Position numbers and translations under genes: made by a program. A stretch of DNA of 43,547 bases from Acidobacteriota bacterium (lineage in GTDB: Bacteria > Acidobacteriota > Vicinamibacteria > Vicinamibacterales > CAVVIG01): the NCBI GenBank assembly GCA_017883165.1, contig JADGOC010000014.1, positions 1 through 43,547 of the forward strand. The letters are read 5' to 3'. Under the pieces are notes generated by a model. That model did not search any database, was not told where the DNA came from, and saw only the letters and a list, made by a program, of their open reading frames with translations. This document shows, piece after piece, positions 6,769 to 43,547 of the stretch (within the stretch, counting starts at the first letter, position 1; each line of letters begins with the position of its first letter).

Positions 6769-7623
6769 ATGCCAGACTACACCCTCGCCGCCTCGCAGTT
6801 CATACGGCTTCTCGAGATCATGGCGGTGCTCCGGTCGCCCACCGGCTGTCCGTGGGATCGCGAGCAGACGATCGACACTCTGAAGCCGTTCGTGCTCGAG
6901 GAAACCTACGAAGTCCTCGAGGCGATCGATCGGCACGACCACCACGCGCTCCGCGAAGAGCTCGGCGACTTCCTGCTCCAGGCGGTGTTTCTCGCGCAGC
7001 TCGAAGCCGAGGCGGCGCACTTCACGATCGCGGACTCGCTCGAGAGTATCGCGGACAAGCTCGTGCGGCGGCATCCGCACGTGTACGCGCGCGAGTCGGA
7101 AAGCGGGCCGATCACATCAGCCGGCCAGGTGCGCACGCGGTGGGAGGAGATCAAGGCCCAGGAGCCCAGTCATACGGACACCCCGAAGACGCTGCTCGGC
7201 GGCATCCCGGCCGCGTTGCCCTCTCTCCTGCGCGCGCACCACATCGGCGTGCGCGCGGCGTCGGTCGGTTTCGATTGGACGCGCACGAGCGACGTCATCG
7301 ACAAGATTCAGGAAGAGGTCGACGAGCTGCGTGAAGTGGTTGGGGGCGACGCGCTGGATAACCTCGACCGGCTTGACCGCCACGACCGCGCGGAGGAGGA
7401 AATGGGCGATCTCTTCTTCGCCATGGCCAACCTGTCGCGCAAGCTCGGCATCGAGCCCGAAACGGCGCTGCGCAAGGCGAACGAGAAGTTCACCGGCCGG
7501 TTCACCGCGATGGAACGCGCGATTGCCGCCTCCGGCCGAACGATGCGCGATATGACCATTGAGGAACTGGAAGCGGAGTGGCAACGGATTAAGAACCACA
7601 AAGACCACAAAGACCACGAATAA
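6769..7623 (+). CDS. mazG: Nucleoside triphosphate pyrophosphohydrolase MazG
   Basis: The 284-aa protein hydrolyses (d)NTPs to NMP and PPi and has two MazG domains in tandem, as in E. coli. The first has GCPWDREQT, EETYEVLEAID and EELGDFLLQAVF; the second has EEVDELREVV and EEEMGDLFFAMANLSRKLG. Conserved acidic Mg-binding residues are present in both. The natural C-terminus appears to end near EAEWQRIK. The final nine residues (NHKDHKDHE) and the stop come from a CACAAAG-type repeat that overlaps the 3' end. The ATG at 6769 lies at the edge of the GTGATGGG repeat and has no clear Shine-Dalgarno. Confidence 0.95.
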   Translation: MPDYTLAASQFIRLLEIMAVLRSPTGCPWDREQTIDTLKPFVLEETYEVLEAIDRHDHHALREELGDFLLQAVFLAQLEAEAAHFTIADSLESIADKLVRRHPHVYARESESGPITSAGQVRTRWEEIKAQEPSHTDTPKTLLGGIPAALPSLLRAHHIGVRAASVGFDWTRTSDVIDKIQEEVDELREVVGGDALDNLDRLDRHDRAEEEMGDLFFAMANLSRKLGIEPETALRKANEKFTGRFTAMERAIAASGRTMRDMTIEELEAEWQRIKNHKDHKDHE

Positions 7624-7914
7624 AAGCAGGCCACGAAGACGAGGTGTTCGACGGCCTTAATCTCGAGAACGATCTGATTGGCGACCACGATGTCCAGGCG
7701 TTGATGACAGAGCGGCTGGCCTCGCTATGAACCTGGAATGCCTTTTCCTTTCCAAACGGAATGCGTTGGGCTTCGAGTTCCAAGTGCACGATGGACCACG
7801 ATGCAACAACCGATGGTCTGGTGAATCAGAGTCTCGAGTTCGTCTGACAGCTGACTGGGAATCTTCAGCATAGAGACTCTTCCCTCTTCTTCGTGCCTTC
7901 GTGTCTTCGTGGTT
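7591..7914. repeat. CACRAAG-family inverted repeat flanking a decayed gene
   Basis: The left arm (7591-7620) is a 9-nt tandem of ACCACAAAG ending ACCACGAA, with a further CCACGAAGACG at 7630-7640. The right arm (7886-7914) is CTTCTTCGTGCCTTCG-TGTCTTCGTGGTT, the imperfect reverse complement. The arms enclose about 265 nt holding the remnant of a GxxExxY gene. The left arm forms the 3' end of mazG. Two further inverted copies without a gene lie at 10491-10568 and 41012-41117. Confidence 0.85.
7624..7871 (-). pseudogene. GxxExxY (PD-(D/E)XK nuclease superfamily) remnant
   Basis: Three pieces in different minus-strand frames line up, in order, with the roughly 125-residue GxxExxY family. Piece 1 (about 7871-7785) starts MLKIPSQLSDELE and has TIGCCIVVHRALG. 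Piece 2 (about 7789-7720) has LELEAQRIPFGKEKAFQV. Piece 3 (about 7705-7624) has RLDIVVANQIVLEIKAVEHL, including the D...ExK residues of the nuclease fold. The joint between pieces 1 and 2 lacks the dozen or so residues that carry the name-giving G-x-x-E-x-x-Y motif, so a small deletion occurred. A frameshift separates pieces 2 and 3, and the C-terminal third is replaced by the repeat arm. It cannot make a working protein. The family assignment of the pieces is from remembered consensus. Confidence 0.8.
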
Positions 7915-7938
7915 GCATTTGCTCTTTTGACGATCGGT

Positions 7939-10446
7939 TCAGCGTGCGATAAACGTTCTGCCCGTGAACGTGTGGATGTCGATCGCGTATCCATCCGTGT
8001 CGACCGCGACCGCGCCGTCGCGGTCGGTGCGGAAGATCTCGGCGCCGGCGGCGCGATAGCGATCGAGCACGTCCGGCGCGGGGTGGCCGAAATAGTTCCC
8101 GCGCCCCACGCTCACGACGGCGGCTCGAGGCGCGATCGCGCGTACAAAGCCGGGAGTACTGGATGTGAGGCTGCCGTGGTGCGGCACCTTCACGACCCTC
8201 AACCGCGCCGGCGGTATCGTGGCGGCCAACACGCGCTCCGCCTCCTTGCCGATGTCGCCGGGCAACAGCACCGAGACGTCGCGCCAGCGAAGTTCGATCA
8301 CGATCGAATCGTCGTTGCGGACGCGCTGGCGCTCCCAGTCCGCGGCCCCCGGATGCCGCACGATTACCTCAACATCGTCCACCACAATGCGATCGCCGAC
8401 CGTCACGTTCGCCCACTTGAGGCCGAGCACGTGCGCCTCGTCGCGCAGCGCCCGCAACGGCTCGAAGCGCGGCACCGGAATGCCTTCCCACACTTCACCC
8501 GGCCGGAACTCGCGCAGCACGGCGGCGGCGCCGCCAATGTGATCCGGATCGCCATGGGTCAGCCCGACGTAATTCAAGCGGCGGACGCCGGCGTCGCGCA
8601 GGACGGGCGCGACCACGCGATCGCCGATGTCGAACGCCGACGAGGCGGACAGCCCGCCCGCGTCAACGAGCAGTGTGGCGCCGCGCGGGAATCGCACGAA
8701 CGCCGAATCGCCCTGGCCGACGTCGAGAAATGTCACGTGCAGACCTCCGTCGCCGCGTGCGGCGATGAGCCTCCAGGGCTCGGCGAGGATCCAGACGGCG
8801 GCGCAGGCCGCGGCCACACCCGCCGCGCGACGGACGGCGCGCGCCAGCGGCGCTTCCGCGCTGCCGGCGATCTCCCGCCGTCGCCGCCACAACGTCCACG
8901 CGGCGCCGGCGGCCATGTAGTACCCGCAGACCGCGACCCAGTGCGGCGCGGCGACCCGATACGTCACCCACGGTGCCAGGCGCACGAGCTCGGCCGACTT
9001 CACGAGGCCGAGGGCGCCAAGGTGCGCGATGTACCCGACGCCGCTCGCCAGCGGCCGCGACACCAGGGCCAGCGGCACGAGCGCCATCCCGGCGATCTGC
9101 GCGACGCCCATCAAAGGAATGGCCAGAAAGTTCAGCGCGAGGCCGGCGAACGTCACGCGCGAGAACACGAGTGCCCCGACCGGAAACAACATCGCTTCGG
9201 CCGCCGCCGACGCCGTAAACATCGCGACGAGCGGAGCGACGCGCCGCGGCAGGCGCGCCTGCAGCACGATGGGCATGACGAGCAGAATCGCCAGCGTCGC
9301 GCCGAACGTCAGCACGAACGCCGGATCAGCAATCGAGAGCGGCCCCGCCGCGATGAGGCAGCCGGCCACCAGGGCGAGCGTGTTGAGCGGCGGACTCCGG
9401 AGATCGATCGCGCGGCCCGAAAAATAGACGACCGCCATCAACGTCGCGCGATCGACCGACGCGCCACCGCCCACCAGATACCCGTACGCCACGAGCACCA
9501 CGATGGCCGAACACATCGCCGCGCGGCCGAGAAGGCCCGCCACGCGAAACGCTCCGAGCATCAGGCCGGCGAGAATCGCGATGTTGCCGCCCGAAATGGC
9601 GATGACGTGATACGTGCCCGCTTCCTGAAGCGTGCGCTGCACGTCTTCGTCCAACCCCACGCGATCGCCGATGACGATCGCGGCCACGATGGCGGCGGAA
9701 CGGGGACTCCAACGTCCCACCGCGGCGGCGATCGATCGCCTGGAGCAATCGCGGACCGACGCCATGGCTTCGTCGAGCGCGCTGCCGCGCGCCGCCGTCT
9801 CCACGAGCGCGCCGCTTTTCACGATGCCCACAAGCGTCGTTCCGCGCCGCGCGAGCGCACGTTCGTGATCGGGCACGCCCGGATCGAGATACCGCGACGG
9901 CCGGCGCAACTCCACCGGCAGACGCACACGCCGCCCCGCGCGCCAGGCGTCCGCGCGCTCAGGCCCGAGCGATCCCACGACGGTCGCCACGACGCCGCCG
10001 GCCACGGGCCGCCCGCCCATCTCGTCGACCCCGTCGACCCTGTCAACATCGATGCTCAACGACACGCCGGACGGCGTGACCGCCGCGTCGGCGCGCAGCA
10101 CGCCAGAGACGTGCGCGAACGCCTCGGCATCCTCCGGTATCAGACGATGTTCGGTGACGGCGCGTTGGCGTTCGGCGCGCGCGAGCTCGTCGAAGGCTGT
10201 CCGCAGCGTCGGCTGCCAGGCCTCGCGCCACGCGTCAGCGGCGAGCAGCGCGCCGCCGGTGAAGAAGGCGAGGCAGACCGCGCCCGCGAGAACGGCGGGC
10301 CGCGCGACACGCCACGCCCACAGCGCGCCGAGCGCGCACGCGATCAGGAGCGCGCAGGCGAGTGTCTTTGGGATGTCAGGAACGAAGAGGCCGAAGGCGG
10401 AGCCGCCGAGCAACCCGACGGCGGGCACGGCCGCGACAGTGCGCAC
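7939..10446 (-). CDS. comEC: ComEC/Rec2 DNA-uptake channel protein
   Basis: The 835-aa inner-membrane protein is predicted to carry transforming single-stranded DNA across the cytoplasmic membrane. It has N-terminal membrane helices and a soluble DUF4131-like segment. The Competence domain follows, with GTYHVIAISGGNIAIL near residue 273, then many hydrophobic helices. A C-terminal metallo-beta-lactamase domain shows LDVGQGDSAFV (about 573), THGDPDHIGG (about 628), LLPGDIG and KVPHHGS (about 752). All parts are present. The GTG at 10444-10446 is the first plausible start. It is convergent with mazG, and a hairpin repeat lies upstream between it and carB. Confidence 0.95.
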   Translation of the reverse strand: MRTVAAVPAVGLLGGSAFGLFVPDIPKTLACALLIACALGALWAWRVARPAVLAGAVCLAFFTGGALLAADAWREAWQPTLRTAFDELARAERQRAVTEHRLIPEDAEAFAHVSGVLRADAAVTPSGVSLSIDVDRVDGVDEMGGRPVAGGVVATVVGSLGPERADAWRAGRRVRLPVELRRPSRYLDPGVPDHERALARRGTTLVGIVKSGALVETAARGSALDEAMASVRDCSRRSIAAAVGRWSPRSAAIVAAIVIGDRVGLDEDVQRTLQEAGTYHVIAISGGNIAILAGLMLGAFRVAGLLGRAAMCSAIVVLVAYGYLVGGGASVDRATLMAVVYFSGRAIDLRSPPLNTLALVAGCLIAAGPLSIADPAFVLTFGATLAILLVMPIVLQARLPRRVAPLVAMFTASAAAEAMLFPVGALVFSRVTFAGLALNFLAIPLMGVAQIAGMALVPLALVSRPLASGVGYIAHLGALGLVKSAELVRLAPWVTYRVAAPHWVAVCGYYMAAGAAWTLWRRRREIAGSAEAPLARAVRRAAGVAAACAAVWILAEPWRLIAARGDGGLHVTFLDVGQGDSAFVRFPRGATLLVDAGGLSASSAFDIGDRVVAPVLRDAGVRRLNYVGLTHGDPDHIGGAAAVLREFRPGEVWEGIPVPRFEPLRALRDEAHVLGLKWANVTVGDRIVVDDVEVIVRHPGAADWERQRVRNDDSIVIELRWRDVSVLLPGDIGKEAERVLAATIPPARLRVVKVPHHGSLTSSTPGFVRAIAPRAAVVSVGRGNYFGHPAPDVLDRYRAAGAEIFRTDRDGAVAVDTDGYAIDIHTFTGRTFIAR

Positions 10447-10490
10447 GGCCGCGGCGCGTGCAAAGTTCGGGGCGCCGGCTCGTCATGAAG

Positions 10491-10568
10491 TCACGAAGAA
10501 CACGACGCTCACGAAGATCTTCAGCCACAAGACCTTCGTGTCCGTCGTGCTCTCCGTGTCTTCGTGAA
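10491..10568. repeat. CACRAAG-family inverted repeat, empty copy
   Basis: The left arm (10491-10521) reads TCACGAAGAACACGACG then CTCACGAAG. The right arm (10535-10568) is its imperfect reverse complement (TTCGTGTCCGTCGTGC, then TCTTCGTGAA). The short spacer around 10522-10534 could form a loop, giving a hairpin with roughly 30-nt arms. It fills most of the 156-nt gap between carB (stop 10603) and comEC (start 10446), both leftward. No open frame of interest lies inside. Besides possible mobility, it could act as a transcription terminator or mRNA-end stabiliser for carAB. Confidence 0.8.
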
Positions 10569-39420: not shown

Positions 39421-40403
39421 AATCTGGGGGGCGCGAACCCTCGCGCCCGCTTTCCTGCACAGAGTTCCACGACGAGCCGCTCGAGCAGCACGCGTGCATC
39501 GCCGGCCGATCGCTTGAGATCGAGATCGGTACGGAAGACCGCCTCGACGGCCGTGGGTAGATCGTCTGGCGCCACCGCCGGGAATTTCGCCCGCACGAGC
39601 CATCCGAGCTGGCCGAGGATCTTCTCGGCGGGCGCGCCGGCGTCGAGCATCAGCGCCAGTTGCCGCAGCGCGGCGCCGGCCTGCCCCGACTCGATCGCGT
39701 TGGTCATGGCCCAGTCATCCTGCAGCGCGGCCGGCCCGACCAGATCCCGCACGTCCTCGACGGTGATGCTCTTCTGCCCCAGCGCGTACAGCATGAGGCG
39801 ATCGACGTCGCCGCGCAGGCGCTTCACGTCGAGCCCGGCGCGCTCGGCGATGAGCCGCGCAGCGGCCGGATCGATCGCGGCGCCGGCCGCGGCCGCGCGC
39901 GTCCGTACCCACCGCTCCGCGTCCGCCTGATCGGCGATGGCGCCGCATTCGACGAGCGTCGCCTGCCGGGCGAGCAGCTTGTAGAGGCGGCTGCGCTTGT
40001 CGATCGTCCCCGCGACCAGGACGAGCGTCGTCTGCGGCTCGGGCGATTTGAACATGGCCTCGAGGCGATCGAGTGCGCGCGTGGCGGCCTCGCTTTCGCG
40101 CTTGGGCACGAGCAGGGCGTCAGCTTGAAAGACGATCACCACGCGCCGCGGCGCCATCATCGGCAGCGTGCGCACGGCGTCGATGAGCGCCGAAACGCCG
40201 TCGGCCAGCTTGTCGCCCGTCGTCATGTCCCCGGCGTGAATGCGCTCGACGTTGAACGCCTGGAGCCCCTCCTCCACGAGGCCGACGAACTCGGCCGCGA
40301 GCGCCGACTTCTCGACGTCGTCTTCGCCCTGGAGCAGGTAGATCGGATCGGGCGTGCCGGCCTGGATCTGTTCATGAACGGCGGACGGGGTGAGGTTTGG
40401 CAT
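39417..40403 (-). CDS. holA: DNA polymerase III delta subunit
   Basis: The 328-aa clamp-loader subunit opens the beta sliding clamp. The start MPNLTPSAVHEQI precedes PIYLLQGEDDVEKSALAAEF, a typical HolA opening. It continues with MAPRRVVIVFQADALL, LVLVAGTIDKRSRLYKLL, LIAERAGLDVKRLRGDVDRLMLYALGQKSITVEDVRDLVG and the C-terminal helical collar. The ATG at 40401-40403 lies at the border of a GTGATGGG-family repeat, and no Shine-Dalgarno is present. The leuS-lptE-holA order is widely conserved. Confidence 0.93.
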   Translation of the reverse strand: MPNLTPSAVHEQIQAGTPDPIYLLQGEDDVEKSALAAEFVGLVEEGLQAFNVERIHAGDMTTGDKLADGVSALIDAVRTLPMMAPRRVVIVFQADALLVPKRESEAATRALDRLEAMFKSPEPQTTLVLVAGTIDKRSRLYKLLARQATLVECGAIADQADAERWVRTRAAAAGAAIDPAAARLIAERAGLDVKRLRGDVDRLMLYALGQKSITVEDVRDLVGPAALQDDWAMTNAIESGQAGAALRQLALMLDAGAPAEKILGQLGWLVRAKFPAVAPDDLPTAVEAVFRTDLDLKRSAGDARVLLERLVVELCAGKRARGFAPPRF

Positions 40404-40508
40404 GGGGTGATGGAGTGATGTGGTGATGGAATGATGTGATGGGGTGATGGAATGATGGTGATCGCATCACCCCATCACACCATCACCACATCACCCCATC
40501 ACCACATT
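40403..40508. repeat. GTGATGGG-family inverted repeat, copy 2
   Basis: The left arm (to about 40462) is an 8-nt-period array of TGATGGAG, TGATGTGG, TGATGGAA and TGATGTGATGGGG. The right arm (40465-40508) is its reverse complement (CATCACCCCATCACACC, then ATCACCACATCACCCC). They are nearly contiguous, so a long hairpin of about 40-bp arms is possible. It fills almost the whole gap between holA and lptE, and its left edge touches the holA start codon. Confidence 0.88.
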
Positions 40509-40519
40509 CTCCTTTCGTT

Positions 40520-41077
40520 TCAGAATGCCTCGAGGATCGCGCTGACGATCGCGCGCGCGAACTCGTCGCTCAGACGATCGAGCGCGTTGGTCTCGTGTCC
40601 GAAAAAGGCGGCGGCGTCGGCGGCGTTGGCGCCACTCGAGGCTTCGTACTCCTGACGGAAGACGAGGCTCGGGTTCTCCCATAGCATCGCGTTGCCGCGC
40701 GTGTCGCGAAGCTCGATCCGCGCCGTCATCGTGATCGTGTAGCGCGAGGCGAGCTGCGTCGGCGCGAAGCTGACCGGCGTGATGGTGATCGACGTCACCG
40801 TCCCCTTCAACACCGCATCGACGTCGGTGTCCTGCGGGAGGACGGTGTACCTTCCGCGGCCGATGAACTCGCGGCGCACCTTCTCGGTCAGGAGCGTCTC
40901 GACGTTGAACACCGTCGTGCTGTTGACGAAGATCGGGATGCCAATCGTCTTCACGTACGCCGGGAGAAACGATCCGCGCCCGGCGAGCGCGTAGCCGCAA
41001 CCGGCGCTGAATTCACCACAAAGGACACACAGGACACAAAGCCAAATACCGGTAGCTGTCTTTCCATGGAACGACAT
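40520..41077 (-). CDS. lptE: LPS-assembly lipoprotein LptE-like
   Basis: The 185-aa protein has a lipoprotein signal peptide ending SAGC, then GYALAGRGSFLPAYVKTIGIPIF. NVETLLTEKVRREFIGRGRYTVL, LKGTVTSITITPVSF and YTITMTARIELRD follow, matching the LptE/RlpB fold. LptE plugs the LptD barrel that inserts LPS in the outer membrane. Its place between leuS and holA is the conserved one. I use the ATG at 41075-41077, because the longer frame upstream only translates a repeat arm. The hydrophobic core of the signal peptide (LCVLCVLCGE) is itself encoded by the other arm of that repeat. Confidence 0.88.
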   Translation of the reverse strand: MSFHGKTATGIWLCVLCVLCGEFSAGCGYALAGRGSFLPAYVKTIGIPIFVNSTTVFNVETLLTEKVRREFIGRGRYTVLPQDTDVDAVLKGTVTSITITPVSFAPTQLASRYTITMTARIELRDTRGNAMLWENPSLVFRQEYEASSGANAADAAAFFGHETNALDRLSDEFARAIVSAILEAF

Positions 41078-41117
41078 CTTGTAATGACCTGTGTGTCCCT
41101 GGTGTCCTTTGTGGTGA
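41012..41117. repeat. CACRAAG-family inverted repeat inside the lptE 5' end
   Basis: The left arm (41012-41041) reads TTCACCACAAAGGACACA then CAGGACACAAAG. The right arm (41088-41117) is its imperfect reverse complement (CCTGTGTGTCCCTGG, TGTCCTTTGTGGTGA). A 46-nt spacer holds the lptE start codon. The right arm lies in the leuS-lptE gap; the left arm is lptE coding sequence. It is the third copy of the family found at 7591-7914 and 10491-10568. Confidence 0.88.
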
Positions 41118-41135
41118 GTCAGCGCCACTGTGCCG

Positions 41136-43547
41136 CTACTGTACAACGATGCTCACTAGCGGCCCCTTCGCGATCATCACCTTGCGAACGGTCTTGCCGG
41201 TGATATGCGTGCGCACGGCGGCGTCCGACAGCGCGAGCTCCCTCAGATCGTCGTCCGCGATACCGGCCGGCACCGTGAGCCGTGCGCGGACCTTGCCGTT
41301 GATTTGCACGGGCACGACGACCTCATCGGCTTTCGCGACCTCGGCGTCAAACGCCGGCCACTCCGCGTTCGAGAGCCCGTCGGCGTGACCGAGGTTCGCC
41401 CACAGTTCCTCGGCCGTGTGCGGCGCAAACGGCGACAGCATCACGACGAGCGCATCGATCGCCTCGCGCAACACGGCGATCGTCTGCAGCCGATCGGTGC
41501 GGCCGCCGGACGGCTCCACCCGCGCCGGCGCGCCGTGCGCGGTCCCCTCGCTGAACTTGTAGAGCTCGTTGACGAGCTCCATCAGCGACGACACCGCCGT
41601 GTTGAGGTGCATGCGATCTTCGATGTCGGCCGTGACCCGGCGGATCGTCTCGTGCGTCTTGCGACGCAGATCGCGCTCCGCTGGCGTGCAGTCGTCGCCG
41701 CACGCGGGGATGCCTTCCCCGCCGATCGTTTCGGCCCAGTGATCGACCATCCGCCACACGCGCACGAGAAAACGGAAGCTGCCGTCAAGGCCGGCGTCAT
41801 TCCATTCGACTTCCTTCTCGGGTGGCGCCACGAACATCACGTACAGCCGCAGCGGGTCGGCGCCGTACTTCTCGAGCATGTCGTCGGGATCGACGACGTT
41901 GCCCTTCGACTTGGACATGACGTGGCCGTCCTTGAGCACCATGCCCTGGGTGAGCAGGCGCGTGAACGGCTCGTCGAAGTTCACCAGGCCGACATCGCGC
42001 AGCACCCGGGTGAAGAAGCGCGAATACAGCAGGTGCAGAATCGCGTGCTCCACGCCGCCGCTGTAGAAATCAACCGGCATCCAGTACGCCGCCTTGGCCG
42101 GATCGAAGGGCTGCTCTGTGTTCGTCGGATCGCAGAAACGGAGGTAGTACCACGACGAATCGACGAAGGTGTCCATCGTGTCGGTTTCGCGTCGCGCCGG
42201 TCCGCCGCACGTGGGACACGTCGTGTTCACGAACTCCGGCACCTGCGCCAGCGGCGAATCGCCGCGCCCGGTGAACGTCGTCACCGTCGGCAACCTGACC
42301 GGCAGTTGCTCGTACGGCACCGGCACGACGCCGTCCTTGTCGCAGTAGAGCACCGGGATCGGCGTGCCCCAGTAACGCTGGCGTGAGATGCCCCAGTCTT
42401 TCAAGCGATACTGGATCTCGCCCGCGCCGACGCCGCGGCGCTCGGCGTCCGCGATCATCGTCTTGATCACGGCCGGCGCTTCCTGCCCGGTGTACGGACC
42501 GGAATTCACGACGCGCCCGTAGGCGCTCGACGCTTCGGTCAGGCTCTCCACGGATGCCGCCTCGTCGCCTGTCTGCACGGCGATGCGAATCGGGAGCTGG
42601 TACTTGCGGGCGAATTCGAAGTCGCGTTGATCGTGCGCGGGAACGGCCATGATCGCGCCGGTGCCGTACTCGGCCAGCACGAAGTTGGCCACCCAGATCG
42701 GCACGGCCTCACCGGTGAACGGATTGATCGCGGTGCGGCCGGTGTCGAAACCTTCCTTGTCGATCGCGCCGGTGAGCCGCGCGCCGCGATCGAGCGCCCG
42801 GAACCTGGCGACGCGGTCGCGCATGGCCTTCGGATCGGCGCTCTCGTTCGCGAAGCGGTGGACGATGGCGTGCTCGGGCGCGAGCAGAACGAAGGTCGCA
42901 CCGTAGATGGTATCGATGCGCGTCGTGAAGATCTCGATCGCGTCACCCGCCGCTGGCGTCCCGCCGCCCGCCGGGACCACCGGAAACGTGATCCGCGCGC
43001 CTTCCGACCGCCCGATCCAGTTGCGCTGCATCAGGACGACTTTCTCGGGCCACGCCTCGAGCGTGTCGAGCCCTTTCAGCAGCTGGTCGGCGTACTCGGT
43101 GATGCGGAAGAACCACTGCTCCAGCTCGCGCGTCTCGACCGGCGTGCCGCACCGCCAGCACGCGCCGTCGACGACCTGCTCGTTGGCGAGCACCGTCTGG
43201 CAGCTCGGACACCAATTCACTGATGACCGCCGGCGGTACGCCAGGCCGCGCTCGAACATCTTCAGGAAGATCCACTGGTTGAACTTGTAGTACTCAGGCA
43301 GGCAGGTGGCGAGCTCGCGCTCCCACGCGTAGCTGATGCCGAGGCGCTGCAGCTGCCCCTTCATGTGGGCGATGTTGTCGAGCGTGGACGTTTCGGGATG
43401 AATCCCGCTCTTGATCGCGGCGTTCTCCGCCGGGAGCCCGAACGCGTCCCAGCCGAATGGATGGAGCACGTTGAAGCCGCGCAGACGCTTCATCCGCGCC
43501 ATCACGTCGCCGATGATGTAATTGCGCACGTGCCCCACGTGCGCGTG
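41136..43547 (-). CDS. leuS: Leucyl-tRNA synthetase, 5' end beyond window
   Basis: 804 codons are present; the N-terminus lies past the right edge. The frame enters at HAHVGHVRNYIIGD, which contains the HIGH-type motif HVGH, and continues GFNVLHPFGWDAFGLPAENAAIKSG. CP1 editing domain sequence (EIFTTRIDTIYGATFVLLAPEH, YGTGAIMAVPAHDQRDFEFA), zinc-type Cys pairs (CPSC, CWRC), MSKSKGNVVDPD and the anticodon-binding region follow. The C-terminal NGKVRARLTVPAG domain ends normally at the TAG at 41136-41138. Only about 40 residues should be missing. Confidence 0.97.
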   Translation of the reverse strand, partial: HAHVGHVRNYIIGDVMARMKRLRGFNVLHPFGWDAFGLPAENAAIKSGIHPETSTLDNIAHMKGQLQRLGISYAWERELATCLPEYYKFNQWIFLKMFERGLAYRRRSSVNWCPSCQTVLANEQVVDGACWRCGTPVETRELEQWFFRITEYADQLLKGLDTLEAWPEKVVLMQRNWIGRSEGARITFPVVPAGGGTPAAGDAIEIFTTRIDTIYGATFVLLAPEHAIVHRFANESADPKAMRDRVARFRALDRGARLTGAIDKEGFDTGRTAINPFTGEAVPIWVANFVLAEYGTGAIMAVPAHDQRDFEFARKYQLPIRIAVQTGDEAASVESLTEASSAYGRVVNSGPYTGQEAPAVIKTMIADAERRGVGAGEIQYRLKDWGISRQRYWGTPIPVLYCDKDGVVPVPYEQLPVRLPTVTTFTGRGDSPLAQVPEFVNTTCPTCGGPARRETDTMDTFVDSSWYYLRFCDPTNTEQPFDPAKAAYWMPVDFYSGGVEHAILHLLYSRFFTRVLRDVGLVNFDEPFTRLLTQGMVLKDGHVMSKSKGNVVDPDDMLEKYGADPLRLYVMFVAPPEKEVEWNDAGLDGSFRFLVRVWRMVDHWAETIGGEGIPACGDDCTPAERDLRRKTHETIRRVTADIEDRMHLNTAVSSLMELVNELYKFSEGTAHGAPARVEPSGGRTDRLQTIAVLREAIDALVVMLSPFAPHTAEELWANLGHADGLSNAEWPAFDAEVAKADEVVVPVQINGKVRARLTVPAGIADDDLRELALSDAAVRTHITGKTVRKVMIAKGPLVSIVVQ

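Follow-up and report, generated by a model that had tools for sequence, protein, structure and literature searches.

Bacterial GxxExxY genes are normally the sole gene of a ~0.5-0.7 kb unit composed of an arm, the gene and an inverted arm. Inverted repeats flanked 105 of the 129 usable GxxExxY genes (81%) versus 2 of 203 control ORFs from the same loci (1%), and units with inverted arms were present in at least eight phyla. When the gene is lost, a gene-less hairpin remains and then single arms, and the GxxExxY unit seems to be a parent of many of the short hairpin repeats scattered in its genomes. The explanation that we consider best, with a probability of about one half, is a REP/RAYT-like system based on a Cas4-like PD-(D/E)XK nuclease, whereby the nuclease would move or maintain the arms. 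The association of gene and repeat is more general than first proposed, and a second, unrelated gene family has the same architecture.

A decayed GxxExxY unit between mazG and comEC

In the window, which is the entire 43,547-nucleotide stretch of DNA that was analysed, the mazG/comEC intergenic region (7594-7914) contains inverted CACRAAG arrays and, on the minus strand between them, a broken GxxExxY gene (PF13366/TIGR04256). The relevant features are:

6769..7623, plus strand: mazG, the convergent left neighbour (Pfam MazG, E 6e-32)
7594..7644, plus strand: downstream arm of the GxxExxY remnant, inverted relative to the upstream arm (CACAAAG/CACAAAG/CACGAAT/CACGAAG)
7645..7871, minus strand: broken GxxExxY (TIGR04256/PF13366) gene with a start codon near 7871, located by HMM match and DNA alignment with intact orthologues
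7886..7914, minus strand: upstream arm of the GxxExxY remnant, minus-strand reading ACCACGAAGACACGAAGGCACGAAGAAG; the arm and the flank outside it are conserved at the same site in G011, G012 and G024
7939..10446, minus strand: comEC-type gene, the right neighbour, on the same strand as the remnant (Pfam Competence, E 9e-45, and Lactamase_B)
10483..10567, no strand: gene-less hairpin with CACGAAG units (inverted-repeat score 20.5; RNA fold z -8.5)
40991..41139, no strand: gene-less hairpin with CACAAAGGACACACAGGACACAAAG arms (inverted-repeat score 24.5; fold z -6.8 for the core, 41010-41119)

The plus-strand units of the downstream arm span 7597 to 7638, and CTTCGTG occurs three times in the second arm, at 7889, 7897 and 7905. 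Pieces of the GxxExxY protein are encoded on the minus strand between the arms (LKIPSQLSDELETLIHQTIGCCIVVHRALG, LELEAQRIPF..KEKAFQV and RLDIVVANQIVLEIKAVEHL). The window copy was detectable only with a profile built from relatives, which matched the minus strand at 7632-7823 over profile positions 3-81 (E 1e-4 when the whole window was searched and 1e-5 for the 4.4-kb locus). By direct search the ORF at 7725-7994 showed no NCBIfam or Pfam match to the GxxExxY family because the reading frame is broken; DNA alignment with intact same-site genes from five related genomes revealed a ~44 bp internal gap, frameshifts and loss of the 3' third. Thus, the inverted CACRAAG arms around GxxExxY gene pieces that the first-pass annotation described are real, as shown by the arm coordinates, the HMM match and this alignment, and the two empty hairpins of the same repeat kind that it reported are present at 10483-10567 and 40991-41139.

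The arm pair of the remnant has the top inverted-repeat score (15.5) among equally spaced pairs in the 43.5-kb window, with 0 of about 1060 higher, by a small margin only within the window alone since the runner-up scores 15.0. The last codons of mazG (7597-7623) come from the repeat arm, which adds a short tail (...NHKDHKDHE*); arms can therefore become C-terminal coding sequence.

The unit decays at the mazG/comEC site

The mazG/comEC junction was also identified in relatives of the window's genome, some of which carry the intact gene there together with its arms. An intact GxxExxY gene is found at the junction in G003, G004, G010, G011, G012, G016, G022, G024 and G049. An intact gene also adjoins mazG at a contig end in G008, and in G009 mazG is adjoined by a gene of the same GxxExxY clade. 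G026 contains a gene-less hairpin, G013, G014 and G018 each retain a single arm, and G007, G019, G020, G027, G002, G036 and G052 have no recognisable arm at the junction. These states form a decay series that runs from the intact unit to the broken gene (the window), the gene-less hairpin, the single arm and, finally, nothing. The ten mazG-site genes that belong to the window's own family group in a single clade, in which inner support is moderate, so the gene-bearing copies at this site look vertically inherited. The most plausible reading of the window copy is a vertically inherited unit of this kind midway through its decay. At two other loci (L127, L147), GxxExxY genes with two or three in-frame stops lie between intact-looking arms, indicating that decayed GxxExxY genes occur beyond the window.

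Inverted arms flank GxxExxY genes across bacterial phyla

The first-pass annotation had suggested a check of GxxExxY genes against inverted flanking repeats, and the association proved strong (105/129 versus 2/203 control ORFs). Among 85 distinct GxxExxY genes from the window's order, the nearest 100 nt on either side are rich in repeat units, with 11.7 CRCRRAG per kb upstream and 14.2 CTYYGYG per kb downstream; farther out, motif density dropped to about 1 per kb. Exact CACRAAG was discarded as an association marker, as it fails for most elements because the repeat unit varies, and we used a motif-free test instead. This test takes the best inverted repeat between 220-nt flanks, with a score of at least 15 counted as a pass. 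In the window's order the median score was 21.5 for true flanks, 9.0 for mispaired flanks and 9.5 for control windows, and 74%, 5% and 0.4%, respectively, passed. A set of 32 genes from Chloroflexi, Bacteroides, Hymenobacter, Cyanobacteria, Spirochaetota, Verrucomicrobia, Phycisphaeraceae and Proteobacteria gave 91% passes, compared to 0.6% of control windows. Mispaired flanks in this set reached 33% because many of its units share the CACAAAGGA type.

An Rfam search of six loci gave no match, nor did the phage records searched. The open-access literature searched for GxxExxY, PF13366 and the repeat letters contained no relevant description; subscription literature lay mostly outside this search, and the absence is no proof.

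Arms vary between elements and match within them

Each arm consists of 7-9-nt units in tandem, mostly CRCRRAG. Arms vary from element to element and match within one. The CACRAAG repeat of the first-pass annotation is present in the window but is one variant only of this general unit, which is about CRCRRAG at 8-9-nt spacing. Unit variants include CACGAAG, CACAGAG, CGCGGAG, CGCAAAG, AACGGAGG and CACAGATTA, and some elements use quite different units. Protein distance correlated with arm 4-mer distance (Mantel r 0.20 for 112 elements and 0.23 within the order; 0 of 1000 permutations). Thus, arms tend to follow the protein clade, in a correlation that is modest and to which shared ancestry contributes.

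Arms from different Bacteroides species differ at two orthologous sites, yet the two arms of each species match. The match extends to 86-90% of variable columns versus 58-67% when arms are re-paired (permutation fraction at most 0.0014), and the linkers between units also change jointly in both arms. Such matched change indicates that the arms pair, that one is copied from the other, or that both are under selection. A selected sense-transcript stem is expected to have more G-U-compatible inter-arm mismatches than mismatches of the reverse kind. In the arm pairs passing the inverted-repeat test these numbered 118 and 119, respectively, and the absence of a wobble bias speaks against RNA-stem selection. 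The lack of G-U bias argues for action at the DNA level or arm-to-arm copying, with RNA roles possible in single units.

The GxxExxY protein is predicted to be a Cas4-like nuclease

Intact relatives match PF13366 (E 9e-35 to 2e-43) and TIGR04256 above the curated cut-off, and the AlphaFold2 model of the GxxExxY protein has a pLDDT of 95 and a pTM of 0.86. Residues E29, D69, E79-x-K81 and Y97 are invariant, and Q93 is nearly so; this E, D, ExK, QxxxY pattern resembles the RecB/Cas4 motif set. Among PDB entries, the model matches the Cas4 protein SSO0001 best (Foldseek E 1e-3; VIA Z 9.8, 3.9 Å over 99 residues). Matches below Cas4 were in the range of common arrangements and no function was read from them. 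The Cas4 profile itself gave sub-threshold matches only (E 0.003-0.03), and the three annotated neighbourhoods contain no CRISPR/cas gene. By its modelled fold and D...ExK residues the protein is assigned to the PD-(D/E)XK superfamily, and the same residues and fold predict nuclease activity. This PD-(D/E)XK gene (PDDEXK_3) is the only gene between the arms, where no DDE, HUH or serine transposase was found.

Gene-less hairpins have spread in a lineage-specific manner

The pattern CRCRRAGRNCRCRRAG had a median of 40.5 hits in the 62 relatives with a GxxExxY match versus 6 in the 87 without, and the reversed control pattern had a median of 4 in both groups. The repeats are therefore not equally common in genomes that lack the gene, an outcome that the first-pass annotation had named as one that would speak against its proposal. 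There are exceptions in both directions: at least 20 repeats occur in 12 genomes in which no gene was detected, and fewer than 10 in 13 genomes with a match. The 8-nt-spaced CACGAAG form, which gave almost no control hits, is commoner in genomes with a mazG-site gene, intact or broken as in the window (median 22 versus 6.5, p 0.017, within the family). The mazG arm type is also plentiful in G017, G023 and G025, which have no mazG-site gene. The two-unit repeat pattern has 712 hits in G017 and 1218 in G025, far above other relatives, and neither genome contributes a mazG-site gene to the tree. The short-loop pattern CACRAAG-N10-CTTYGTG had no match in the window's own genome.

In Bacteroides, repeats of the radA-site arm types are scattered in all nine genomes tested (9/9), and the reversed pattern had 0 hits. 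One genome, G200, contains ten near-identical 91-bp gene-less hairpins at unrelated sites, and an eleventh is present in G226. Four of these hairpin sites were compared with those in sister species: one is shorter by about the hairpin length, one has another hairpin type and two have other sequence. Lineage-specific spread of gene-less hairpins is thus well supported, and the nuclease is a putative mover. The arms of the one intact GxxExxY gene of G200 were compared with the 91-bp hairpins and are of another type. The 91-bp hairpins at L236-L247 and L254 are bordered by additional conserved sequence resembling imperfect direct repeats of ~26 bp (ATTCCTTTCCGCACCGTTATGAA-like). At sites of the G200 hairpin, sister Bacteroides (L277, L283, L285, L302-L306) have other short tandem repeats, e.g. 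CCCACTACGACTGAAGG.

Gene-bearing copies are mostly inherited vertically

The gene-bearing copies are mostly inherited vertically. Of the 28 placed loci of the Bacteroides radA/FAD site, 13 are occupied. This distribution corresponds to nine changes on the flanking-gene tree, six of which are forced by well-supported branches, and relic arms are also present at the site. Between close Bacteroides species, the gene and inner arms differ and the outer ends (TTCACCACAGA) stay. When occupied G212 and G162 are compared with empty G197, the last 300 nt of radA are identical and the next gene is 5-10% different in its first 200 nt and 0-3% beyond. The occupied alleles are without the old intergenic DNA. 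The raised divergence beside the element, together with the loss of old intergenic DNA, suggests allele replacement by recombination and not clean transposition. No target-site duplication was seen at the sites compared, where the relatives were too distant or the allele had been replaced, leaving no clean, close pair of empty and occupied sites. In Sphingomonas parapaucimobilis a unit separates fabD from fabG; the matched region of S. paeninsulae is shorter by ~436 bp.

These data divide the claim in the first-pass annotation of a small mobile element with an autonomous, gene-bearing form and derivative hairpins. The derivation of gene-less hairpins from gene-bearing units stands, on the basis of the mazG-site decay series and the relic arms at the Bacteroides radA site, as does hairpin spread, given the ten near-identical copies in one genome, with the nuclease a candidate for the mover. 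By contrast, the gene-bearing copies are unlike an active transposon, as those at the mazG site form one vertical-looking clade, no target-site duplication was seen and the Bacteroides alleles look replaced.

Four-helix-bundle units share the architecture

A gene family unrelated to GxxExxY has the same architecture. Of 28 TIGR02436 (S23/IVP) four-helix-bundle genes in the same genomes, 23 are bracketed by inverted tandem heptamers, versus 6% of mispaired flanks. In relatives of the window's genome (L307-L336) these arms are, for example, (CAGTAGG)n and (CGGGAGT)n. A four-helix-bundle unit with GCAATGG-type arms is located at the mazG/comEC site of G001 (L020), beside a CACGAAG relic, as if both unit kinds had used this site. 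In the window, a strong hairpin at 40402-40507 has inverted (GTGATGG)-type heptamers and no gene inside, and is like the four-helix-bundle arms and unlike the CACRAAG type.

The Coxiella 23S rRNA intervening sequence (IVS), which is excised by RNase III, has tandem GACAGAT heptamers before its S23 ORF (PMC4990558). Because of these heptamers it probably belongs to the four-helix-bundle class.

Mechanistic model and alternatives

In the REP/RAYT-like model, the small Cas4/RecB-type nuclease would recognise its own arms as DNA, perhaps in the form of an extruded or lagging-strand hairpin, and would cut there. Repair or recombination after the cut would keep the two arms matched. Occasional copying of the unit, or of gene-less hairpins in trans, could place them in other intergenic sites, often gene ends, and slow turnover would make most gene-bearing copies look vertical. 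We infer that the nuclease itself moves the hairpins. Against this model stand the mostly vertical gene copies, the absence of a visible target-site duplication, the apparent allele replacement in Bacteroides, the repeat-rich genomes without the gene and the arm mismatch in G200. In a broader version, which we propose tentatively and at somewhat less than even odds, these are undescribed phylum-wide minimal elements in which a lone Cas4-like nuclease copies and maintains its own arms and mobilises gene-less hairpins in trans; the S23/IVP units would be a sister class sharing the architecture, and both would account for many dispersed short tandem repeats.

The main rival is homing-like allele conversion, whereby cleavage by the nuclease would fall on empty alleles of its own intergenic site, and homologous recombination via the flanking genes would then copy in the occupied allele. 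The arms would then be processing or recombination ends and the gene-less hairpins deletion products spread by other means. PD-(D/E)XK homing enzymes are known, orthologous sites are shared between genera, and three further observations agree with conversion: the nine or more presence/absence changes at one site, the missing old intergenic DNA of occupied alleles, and an increase in divergence that is confined to the 200 nt next to the element. However, it leaves unexplained the matched tandem-repeat arms, their clade specificity and the ten dispersed near-identical hairpins, and unit loss by recombination would give the same mosaic; we regard it as unlikely. Vertical inheritance, clade-specific arms and the scarcity of repeats where the gene is absent would also be expected of a stationary gene whose arms are its own operators or terminators, as coevolving binding sites, with the dispersed hairpins as regulon sites. 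The linker bases that change together in both arms, the near-identical 91-bp hairpins at unrelated sites and the gene-less relics at the gene's own sites make this quite improbable.

A role at the RNA level, in which RNase III cuts the transcript stem of the arms and the gene rides harmlessly in operons, has a precedent in the 23S rRNA IVS with its RNase III excision (PMC4990558). Annotated examples do lie inside co-directional operons and the stems are strong on folding, but hairpins also occur between convergent genes, as in the window, and there is no excess of G-U-compatible inter-arm mismatches (118:119), so that RNA-level insulation appears distinctly improbable. We give almost no credence to short purine-rich repeats lying beside GxxExxY genes by accident or base composition. 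The window arm pair is barely above the window background and repeats are abundant in some genomes, but such flanks occur at only 1% of the 203 control ORFs and in 0.4-0.6% of control windows, and reversed patterns give background counts.

Comparison with known systems

The GxxExxY protein shares with Cas4/RecB-type nucleases the fold and the catalytic pattern of E, D, ExK and QxxxY, but has only about 120 residues. The association with inverted short-repeat arrays in at least eight phyla gives GxxExxY, a common family without a settled function, a candidate DNA substrate, namely its own arms. The allele-replacement pattern in Bacteroides is compatible with a homing endonuclease element. Like miniature elements of the MITE type, the gene-less forms are short inverted-repeat elements in many copies; however, no DDE transposase or target-site duplication was found for GxxExxY units, and their arms are tandem units that vary between loci. 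The 23S rRNA IVS similarly places a small ORF within a hairpin (PMC4990558), but is located in rRNA and has a four-helix-bundle ORF, whereas GxxExxY units are intergenic and encode a nuclease-fold protein. The four-helix-bundle units would connect this unexplained IVS to the same principle.

The GGGAATC and TAACTGA heptamers of Xanthomonas, Nostoc and Beggiatoaceae are dispersed, intergenic, short tandem repeats (PMC4692102, PMC4679880), and those of Xanthomonas form many inverted pairs without a known source (PMC4692102). They differ from the arms described here in that they were described without an associated gene or mobile element. We propose that they may originate from small-gene units; dispersed short tandem repeats and hairpins for which previous studies had identified no mobile element (PMC4692102) would thus gain a possible source.

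In REP/RAYT systems one small enzyme gene lies between inverted repeats with which it coevolves and which are numerous in its genome (PMC2817692), and gene-less palindromes, the REPINs, form populations (PMC3116915, PMC8049555). The parallel to REP hairpins and their transposases with another enzyme fold, drawn in the first-pass annotation, is a good fit in architecture. The GxxExxY gene likewise lies between two inverted repeats (105/129 versus 2/203 control ORFs), the repeats are overrepresented where the gene is present (40.5 versus 6, with exceptions both ways) and enzyme and repeat coevolve, modestly and in part through shared ancestry (Mantel r 0.20-0.23). By contrast, the GxxExxY enzyme is a PD-(D/E)XK nuclease and that of REP/RAYT a Y1/HUH tyrosine transposase, and the GxxExxY arms are tandem CRCRRAG-like 7-9-nt units whereas a REP is a palindrome with a GTAG-type head. 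Enzyme and repeat structure thus place the units outside REP/RAYT proper, which is nonetheless the best working model in the sense that GxxExxY units may work like one. If the nuclease does maintain or move its arms, another kind of enzyme would stand beside transposases in building bacterial repeat populations.
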